From Pelosinus sp. UFO1 (GTDB lineage: Bacteria > Bacillota > Negativicutes > DSM-13327): a stretch of DNA of 64,000 bases. The stretch covers positions 2,075,693 to 2,139,692 of the forward strand of contig NZ_CP008852.1 in NCBI RefSeq assembly GCF_000725345.1, read 5' to 3'. The translations under genes and the position numbers were made by a program. The notes below the pieces were generated by a model. The model saw nothing but the letters and a program-made list of their open reading frames with translations, had not been told where the DNA came from and made no database searches. This document shows, piece by piece, positions 4,142-61,606 of the stretch (its first letter is position 1; every line of letters begins with the position of its first letter).

Positions 4142-4148
4142 TTTTCAT

Positions 4149-4187
4149 AAAAACGTCATTCATTTCTGTGAATGACGTTTTTATTTT
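4149..4187 (+). terminator. Rho-independent terminator of the rrn operon
   Basis: A perfect 14-bp stem, AAAAACGTCATTCA pairing with TGAATGACGTTTTT, has a 6-nt loop (TTTCTG) and runs into a T-rich tail. It lies 7 nt after tRNA-Asn. Confidence 0.93.
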
Positions 4188-39887: not shown

Positions 39888-39913
39888 GTACACAAAAGAT
39901 AGACCTTATTAAT

Positions 39914-39954
39914 AAAAACAAGGACTTGGCTTTAATGCCAAGTCCTTGTTTTTA
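39914..39954 (+). terminator. Rho-independent terminator after mnmA
   Basis: A perfect 17-bp stem, AAAAACAAGGACTTGGC with its complement, has a TTTAAT loop and ends in TTTTTATT. One of the strongest terminators in the window. Confidence 0.95.
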
Positions 39955-40034
39955 TTAGATATACTATATAGATGCATTATAAAATAATCTATTTCGGGTA
40001 ATAATAGTATTACAATCTATTGGAGGCTATTCTT

Positions 40035-40998: not shown

Positions 40999-41000
40999 AA

Positions 41001-41037
41001 ATAAAGTGGAGACCACAGGGTCTCCACTTTATTTTAG
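41001..41037 (+). terminator. Rho-independent terminator after the small membrane protein gene
   Basis: ATAAAGTGGAGACC (41001-41014) pairs with GGTCTCCACTTTAT (41019-41032), 14 bp with an ACAG loop, followed by TTTTAG. Confidence 0.92.
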
Positions 41038-45771: not shown

Positions 45772-45800
45772 TTGACAGGATAACTTTTCTAAGATAAAAT
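45772..45800 (+). promoter_or_regulatory. Sigma-A promoter of the DUF1292 gene
   Basis: TTGACA (45772-45777), 17 bp, TAAAAT (45795-45800). It lies 31 bases before the start codon and just after ruvX. Confidence 0.7.
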
Positions 45801-48033: not shown

Positions 48034-49259
48034 GAAAACCCGAACTTTTGGCACCTGCTGGTAATTTTGAAAAGCTTAAGATGGCTCTTCTTTATGGAGC
48101 AGACGCTGTATTTATGGCCGGCAAGTCCTTTGGACTGAGAGCTTTTAGCGGTAATTTTACGGAAGATGAGCTAAAAGAGGGTATTAATTTTGCCCATAGT
48201 TTACAAAAAAAAGCATATGTTACTGTGAACATATTTCCTCATAATGAGGATCTACCAGAACTACCTGCCTACATTAAATTTTTAGTTGACTGTCATGTTG
48301 ACGCAGTGATTGTTGCCGATGTTGGTGTATACCGAATTGTTCGAGAAGTAGCACCTACATTACCTATTCATATTAGTACGCAAGCCAATAACACTAACTG
48401 GTCTTCAGTACTTTTCTGGCAAGAATTGGGGGCTGATCGAGTAGTGCTCGCTCGTGAATTGTCTCTAGAAGAAATTACAGAAATTAGGCAAAAAGTGAGT
48501 CTTGATCTTGAAGCGTTTGTTCATGGAGCGATGTGTATATCTTATTCTGGACGTTGCTTAATGAGTAATTATTTTGCTGATCGCGATGCAAATCGGGGAC
48601 AATGCGCTCAACCCTGCCGCTGGAAGTTTAACTTAGTAGAAGAGAAACGCCCAGGTGAATATTATCCTGTACTAGAGGATGAACGTGGGACTTATATCTT
48701 CAATTCAAAGGACTTGTGTTTATTGCCAAACATTCCTGAATTGATCAATAGTGGCTTGGATAGTTTTAAAATCGAAGGTCGTATGAAAAGTGTACATTAC
48801 GTGGCTACAGTAATTAAAGTATACCGTGAAGCCATTGATGCTTATATAGCGGATCCAGACAAATATAGTGTTAAAACAGAGTGGCTCGAAGAATTGCAAA
48901 AAATCTCTCATCGTGCCTATACAAGTGGATTTTACTTTAACAAAGCAACTCAAGATGATCAAATTTATGGATCATCTTCTTATGAACAGACATTTGATTT
49001 TATTGGTTTAGTGAAAAGTTATGACGCCACGACACGTATGGCTATTATTGAACAACGCAATAATATAAAAATTGGGCAAAGAATAGAGATCATGCAACCT
49101 GGGAGGCCTAATTTTTCACAAGTCATTACTGAAATGTTTGACATGGAAGGCAATTCTATAAGTGTTGCGCCCCATGCTCAACAGCTTATTCGTATTCCTA
49201 TGCTCCAAGAAACTGTGGAGTTTGCCATGTTACGCCGTGAGGTACAGGAAAATGCATGA
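48030..49259 (+). CDS. U32 peptidase-like tRNA hydroxylation protein (TrhP/YegQ type)
   Basis: 409 residues: PELLAPAGNFEKLKMALLYGADAV at the N-terminus, the U32 signature EAFVHGAMCISYSGRCLMS followed by RGQCAQPCRWKF, giving four conserved Cys likely to hold an Fe-S cluster, and a C-terminal beta domain. Family members TrhP/RlhA hydroxylate tRNA U34 or 23S C2501, and the coupling with trmR favours tRNA U34. GTG start overlapping the trmR stop by four bases. It is one polypeptide where Bacillus has two (YrrN and YrrO). Confidence 0.88.
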   Translation: MRKPELLAPAGNFEKLKMALLYGADAVFMAGKSFGLRAFSGNFTEDELKEGINFAHSLQKKAYVTVNIFPHNEDLPELPAYIKFLVDCHVDAVIVADVGVYRIVREVAPTLPIHISTQANNTNWSSVLFWQELGADRVVLARELSLEEITEIRQKVSLDLEAFVHGAMCISYSGRCLMSNYFADRDANRGQCAQPCRWKFNLVEEKRPGEYYPVLEDERGTYIFNSKDLCLLPNIPELINSGLDSFKIEGRMKSVHYVATVIKVYREAIDAYIADPDKYSVKTEWLEELQKISHRAYTSGFYFNKATQDDQIYGSSSYEQTFDFIGLVKSYDATTRMAIIEQRNNIKIGQRIEIMQPGRPNFSQVITEMFDMEGNSISVAPHAQQLIRIPMLQETVEFAMLRREVQENA

Positions 49260-49458
49260 ACAAATTCTAATTCGTATTGATGTCAAGTACATAAATTATC
49301 TAAATCGGATTATGGAAGGGTATGAATATTTAGGTGTAGTTACTACTGTAAAAGATCAGGTTGGAGTATTACGTATCCGTGTTACACCCGATACATATAA
49401 AGAAGTACAAGATATATTAGAAAATCTACCGATTGAGTTTGAATATGTAAGCTCATAG
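49252..49458 (+). CDS. DUF4911 family small protein
   Basis: 68 residues: EQILIRIDVKYINYLNRIMEGYEYLG and VLRIRVTPDTYKEVQDIL match the DUF4911 pattern. The ATG at 49252 overlaps the U32 gene by eight bases, so the two are translationally coupled. Function unknown, but its place suggests a link with the tRNA-modifying genes. A frame extending upstream to 49162 only shadows the U32 gene. Confidence 0.8.
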   Translation: MHEQILIRIDVKYINYLNRIMEGYEYLGVVTTVKDQVGVLRIRVTPDTYKEVQDILENLPIEFEYVSS

Positions 49459-49501
49459 CGCATAGCTGCAGTATAATGAAAAATTAATAATTTTACCAGA
49501 C

Positions 49502-49537
49502 AATGCCATACTATCATTGAGGTGATAGTATGGCATT
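49502..49537 (+). promoter_or_regulatory. Perfect 15-bp hairpin enclosing RBS and start codon of the PBP gene
   Basis: AATGCCATACTATCA (49502-49516) pairs with TGATAGTATGGCATT (49523-49537) across a 6-nt loop TTGAGG. The ribosome-binding site GAGGTGAT spans the loop and the 3' arm, and the ATG at 49530 is inside the 3' arm. The folded mRNA would limit ribosome access. There is no U-run, so it is not a terminator. Regulation is an inference. Confidence 0.7.
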
Positions 49538-53402: not shown

Positions 53403-53413
53403 TTAGCTTTATA

Positions 53414-53466
53414 TAGAGGTATAAAAGATTATTAAAAAATCTTTTATACCTCTATTTTTTATTTTT
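53414..53466 (+). terminator. Rho-independent terminator after efp
   Basis: TAGAGGTATAAAAGATT (53414-53430) pairs with AATCTTTTATACCTCTA (53438-53454), a 17-bp perfect stem, followed by TTTTTTATTTTT. Confidence 0.95.
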
Positions 53467-61527: not shown

Positions 61528-61551
61528 GTACTCATGTTATATGATAAATAG

Positions 61552-61590
61552 AAAATATAGTTGATAAAGTGATTTTATCAACTATATTTT
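61552..61590 (+). other. Perfect 17-bp hairpin in front of xseA
   Basis: AAAATATAGTTGATAAA (61552-61568) pairs with TTTATCAACTATATTTT (61574-61590), loop GTGAT. It ends only 16 bases before the xseA ATG and has a weak U-run (within the arm). It may be a second terminator or a control element for xseA; no promoter was identified between it and the gene. Confidence 0.55.
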
Positions 61591-61606
61591 CAAATGAAGG
61601 TGAATT

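Follow-up and report, generated by a model that had tools for sequence, protein, structure and literature searches.

The start of a class B penicillin-binding protein (PBP) gene lies in a perfect hairpin that is best explained as a silencer of read-through transcripts with a forespore promoter embedded in its 5′ arm, a reading that we consider very probable on the strength of comparative sequence analysis. The gene was studied in a window of 64,000 nt, the whole stretch of DNA analyzed here, which comes from a genome of 5.1 Mb in a single contig, with Pelosinus (class Negativicutes) as its closest named kin in the public collection; the features around the gene are listed in Table 1. RNA polymerase that has initiated upstream would yield an mRNA bearing the full hairpin, whose stem would lock the start codon and half of the Shine–Dalgarno (SD) sequence, so that vegetative cells would make little or no PBP from it. 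Sigma-G, possibly joined by sigma-F, would use part of the 5′ arm as its −10 element in the forespore; the RNA made there would begin at the SD, within the loop, and without the 5′ arm it could not fold into the hairpin and would be translated. One short sequence would then be both a developmental promoter and a translation lock on unwanted read-through RNA.

Table 1. Features of the PBP start region and its surroundings, in window coordinates.
Feature	Position	Strand	Basis or detail
Candidate hairpin sequestering the ribosome-binding site and start of the read-through transcript	49502–49537	+	Pairing, folding, conservation and covariation in 39 orthologous loci
SD sequence GAGGTGAT	49519–49526	+	First half in loop, second half in stem
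Class B PBP, transpeptidase and PBP dimerization domains, 557 aa	49530–51203	+	Pfam PF00905, PF03717
Predicted forespore sigma-G (sigma-F/G type) −10 element GCCATACTA	49505–49513	+	Core CATACTA 49507–49513; G[C/G]CATACTA in 39 PBP loci
Candidate −35 TAATA, weak GHATR-like	49485–49489	+	17 nt before the −10 core
Expected forespore transcript start, in hairpin loop	49519–49522	+	From −10 position, ~6–9 nt downstream
DUF4911 gene, upstream neighbor, expected read-through source	49255–49458	+	PF16256
Best upstream sigma-A-type promoter, TTGACA-17-TAAAAT	45772–45800	+	Consensus scan only

The hairpin is formed by an inverted repeat of 15 bp (49502–49516, AATGCCATACTATCA; 49523–49537, TGATAGTATGGCATT) with 100% complementarity, separated by the 6-nt loop TTGAGG, and a 16th stem pair (G–U) is possible. 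Stem, loop, SD and the ATG at 49530, which lies inside the hairpin, are all located exactly where the original prediction placed them. That prediction also had the stem enclose the ribosome-binding site (RBS), which holds for the start codon and for half of the SD, the four SD bases GAGG being unpaired in the loop, so that the SD is partly and not wholly stem-paired. Folding against shuffled controls, proposed at the same time as a check, gave −25 kcal/mol for the segment 49470–49580 compared with −15.6 ± 3.0 in 200 dinucleotide shuffles of that segment (z = −3.2), one of which (1/200) folded equally well. The energy of the PBP start region is also the lowest among the 43 SD-bearing genes of the window (−24.7 vs. 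a mean of −13.2 ± 4.8).

That the hairpin goes beyond chance is best seen in its conservation and covariation among relatives. PBP orthologues were gathered from 60 relatives and later from 200 genomes of the class Negativicutes, and their start regions were read in coding orientation. Pairing at the start, the second check that had been suggested, is kept across the class: G[C/G]CATACTA stands upstream and in register with the start region in 39 of the 50 loci with a readable start, and the hairpin at the SD and start codon persists in orthologues down to ~40% PBP identity. The start codon follows CATACTA after 16–19 nt in most loci; this distance grows to 28–32 nt in family f23 and to 68 nt in L026, and the outer stem is retained despite the variable loop length. 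L026 itself carries ~50 additional bases in the loop over a retained stem base.

Such pairing might be a by-product, in that the conserved −10 (GCCATAC) chances to be the reverse complement of GT-ATG-GC at the start and no selection acts on the RNA. Each arm does have reasons of its own to be conserved (the promoter on one side, the start codon and an Ala codon on the other), and the core pairs are invariant across loci and therefore uninformative on selection for pairing. We nevertheless regard a by-product as unlikely and judge the pairing to be selected because covariation is seen at pairs subject to neither constraint. In 22 out of 22 genus representatives the synonymous third base of codon 2 is matched (as T–A, A–T or G–T) by the non-coding base preceding GCC, where 11.1 ± 2.4 would be expected after permuting the partners (p < 5e-5), a permutation that is not fully kinship-corrected and is helped in this respect by the switch count on the tree. 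This wobble pair switched at least four times on a quick tree of the PBP, and shifting the register abolishes it. Over the full pair count, eight pairs changed on both sides, with a covariation score of 0.269 compared with 0.145 ± 0.014 in shuffles; the inner pairs near the loop were included in the test and their covariation is not significant (p ~0.05–0.2). Individual loci also tell against a by-product: L033 has GGC for GCC in its 5′ arm and, in step with this, CCT for GCN as codon 2, L028 has rebuilt its SD hairpin from unrelated sequence (GCCC...GACGGGA / TCCCGTC..ATGGGC), and L015 has rebuilt another one over its own SD (CCCCTAAACAGCC / GGCTGTTTGGGG). Conserved and covarying pairing thus supports the original suggestion of translational control through sequestration of the start site.

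What the original prediction overlooked is that the 5′ arm doubles as a predicted −10 element of the forespore sigma-G type. The sigma-G consensus has CATNHTA at −10 and GHATR at −35, ~17 nt apart, and the SASP genes are its classic targets. Upstream regions of SASP genes from ~30 spore-forming genomes of the class show GTATG, 17 nt, and then GCCATTCTA, GGCATTCTA or GCCATGCTA, alongside a second type with GATAATA/GATACTA. The spacing of 17 nt between GTATG and CATTCTA in SASP genes is also that between TAATA and the −10 at the PBP gene, and by this comparison the −10 lies in the 5′ arm and the gene's own predicted transcript excludes that arm. The −10 match is perfect; the −35 is weak in many orthologues, good in L018 and L019 (GTATA at 17 nt), and reads TAATA in the window. 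At the PBP loci A invariably occupies a position that is free in SASP −10s, and it pairs there with the T before the ATG, and this fixation of bases left free in SASP promoters is a further argument against a by-product. The element would be used by sigma-G and possibly also by sigma-F; the consensus sequences of these factors overlap in spore-forming bacteria, an overlap reported for Clostridioides difficile (PMC7438776), so that the assignment to either is ambiguous. Readings of the 5′ arm as a sigma-K (CATANNNT) or sigma-E (CATACANT) element were rejected, as CATACTA ends in a fixed A and is followed by T, C or A, and clades with replaced promoters have −10s of sigma-F/G type.

A DNA palindrome recognized by a protein had been proposed as an alternative to RNA pairing. 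The part of this proposal that survives is that the 5′ arm alone resembles a sigma-G type −10 and so is itself a predicted protein-binding (sigma) site. An operator for a dimeric regulator of the PBP gene, as the perfect 15-bp inverted repeat might also be read, is extremely unlikely: the arm spacing of 16–68 nt among relatives is far from fixed and excludes a normal dimeric repressor site, and the 5′ arm is constant among loci, whereas the 3′ arm is free to vary in its non-coding part. A genome search for hairpin copies of the form CCATACTA..TATGG returned seven matches, compared with 11 for the reversed control, and the two inspected besides the PBP site (33959 and 1551389) have no start-region arrangement. 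Among the matches inspected, the pattern thus occurs at a gene start only once and, as far as the PBP site and these two of the seven matches go, no regulon of identical hairpins was found.

For the read-through silencer, the consequence of the −10 position is that a transcript starting 6–9 nt past it would lack the 5′ arm. Read-through RNAs modeled for the loci fold with a median of −28 kcal/mol and RNAs derived from the −10 with −7 (the start in the window was modeled at 49520), and the pairing probability of the RBS is 0.76 in the former and 0.58 in the latter, against a window average of 0.56. The drop is modest because the short SD transcript still forms weak local pairs, even though the two energies lie far apart; its small size tells against the model. 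Predicted folding and covariation agree in placing the SD and AUG under the stem in transcripts arriving from upstream. Also counting against it are the deduced forespore 5′ UTR of only ~10 nt, with the SD at its extreme end, and the weak −35 in many orthologues. The silenced full-length mRNA might be a second regulated form, with the hairpin opened in some vegetative condition by a helicase, a loop-binding sRNA or a cell-wall stress factor. We think this quite improbable; if true, the same PBP would serve both growth and spore wall synthesis by way of a class-wide promoter/hairpin element.

The surroundings of the gene are those in which read-through would be expected. The PBP gene sits inside a run of genes that are read in one direction and are mostly of housekeeping type, with no terminator in between: a consensus scan of the + strand identified no terminator-like site from the strong sigma-A-type promoter at 45772–45800 until 53413–53455, and none was found in the 71-nt gap between the DUF4911 gene and the PBP gene of the window. 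A read-through transcript that runs on into aroQ, pepP and efp is therefore plausible; these genes lie downstream of the PBP in most hairpin loci too. A perfect TATAAT (49472–49477) without a clear −35 is located between the DUF4911 gene and the hairpin in the window genome and, among the relatives, in the nearest one (L007) alone; it is a possible extra vegetative promoter, the RNA of which would include the full hairpin.

Comparison of the orthologous loci points to a trade-off between hairpin and terminator. None of the hairpin loci with DUF4911 or U32 upstream has a terminator in the gap, and family f26 (L021, L036–L040), where the hairpin is missing, has DUF4911 separated from the PBP by a strong intrinsic terminator, found by scan in five of its six loci, the sixth (L038) having a stem without the full T run. 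This pattern fits the proposed silencer and rests largely on a single clade, f26, that is to say on one event. PBP genes without a DUF4911 neighbor in the sequenced surroundings examined (L027, L050, L052, L055) have a degenerate, absent or weak hairpin, which likewise fits an anti-read-through device. Hairpin and terminator offer themselves for comparison as two answers to the same read-through problem. The −10 of f26 is sigma-F-like (e.g. GGAGAAACTA), and with f27 (L050, L052) included the −10s found are GGAGAAACTA, GGAGAAAATA and GGAGAGAATA, all of sigma-F type, so the promoter of these orthologues has apparently switched to this type. In L050 and L052 a small hairpin surrounds the −10 and leaves the SD free.

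Temperature, an sRNA and coupling to translation of the upstream DUF4911 gene had been named as possible triggers, each of which would make the hairpin a conditional switch on the full-length transcript. The covered start codon would suit such a switch, as would the loop-exposed half of the SD, which could serve a partner as a nucleation site. We consider it very unlikely all the same, and none of the three triggers found support. An RNA thermometer relies on pairs weak or imperfect enough to melt at physiological temperatures; the perfect 15-bp stem found here (~−23 to −25 kcal/mol) has a stability far beyond that of an obvious thermometer, and a graded or imperfect stem is not kept among relatives. 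Thermometers of the fourU/ROSE type resemble the PBP hairpin in pairing the SD and start in a 5′ hairpin, but the latter differs in its perfect, far too stable stem, in the promoter predicted in one arm and in having no Rfam match, a scan of the 64,000-nt window having returned rRNA and tRNA only. The absence of an Rfam match also speaks against a conditional switch in general; no trans-acting partner was found for an sRNA mechanism. As for coupling, the DUF4911 stop is 71 nt upstream of the PBP start in the window and ~35 to 170 nt among relatives, and the hairpin loci L035 and L056 have no DUF4911 match, both of which tell against this trigger.

The distribution of the gene links it to sporulation. 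PBP orthologues occur in 51 of the 200 class genomes and SpoIVA (PF09547) also in 51, with 49 in common, so the PBP gene is nearly confined to spore formers; this co-occurrence, together with the forespore-type −10, suggests that the PBP is sporulation-linked with a forespore-type promoter. Two genomes, G037 (L020) and G043 (L027), have the PBP without a SpoIVA match; L020 retains an intact hairpin and that of L027 has collapsed, which may reflect decay following the loss of sporulation. The data point to a forespore-specific cell-wall synthase common to nearly all spore-forming Negativicutes. Spore wall synthesis is of particular interest in these bacteria, which form endospores and bear an outer membrane.

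The best reading of the sequence is that the PBP hairpin works like those of two known systems. Long early transcripts of phage T4 gene e (lysozyme) fold a hairpin over the SD and AUG, with a 100-fold reduction, whereas late-promoter transcripts lack its 5′ portion, the late promoter being in the 5′ strand, and are translated; early transcripts of soc, 49 and I-TevI are likewise silenced by an SD/AUG hairpin with the late promoter in its 5′ strand (PMC3014915). T4 gene e thus shares with the PBP a read-through hairpin over SD and AUG and a developmental promoter in the 5′ strand, the PBP side being deduced from sequence; the PBP differs in being a chromosomal bacterial gene, in depending on a predicted forespore sigma factor and not a phage late sigma, and in its class-wide conservation. 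For spoIIIG (sigG) of Bacillus subtilis, the proposal is that a hairpin of 20+ bp blocks read-through of the gene from the spoIIG promoter, and transcripts that start at the forespore promoter of spoIIIG itself are unable to form it (PMC5942855). Like the PBP gene, spoIIIG is linked to sporulation and has its forespore promoter downstream of another operon, and in both cases an RBS hairpin would silence the read-through form. Unlike spoIIIG, the PBP gene encodes a class B PBP, belongs to another class and is unrelated in sequence, its −10 is itself the 5′ arm, and its upstream genes look vegetative. The PBP hairpin would add a cellular, class-wide and covariation-supported case to a regulatory logic for which T4 lysozyme and one Bacillus gene are the best-known examples.

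PBPs from outside the class (L096–L124, 35–43% identity) have no comparable start hairpin by eye or by folding energy. Several have a sigma-G-like GTATA...nATnCTA upstream, and together with the PBPs of the class they perhaps form a wider family of forespore class B PBPs. Further long near-perfect inverted repeats with arms of 16–24 bp are present in the window at 39910–39957, 53413–53455, 61551–61591, 4147–4184 and 40999–41034, of which at least the one at 53413–53455 is terminator-like.
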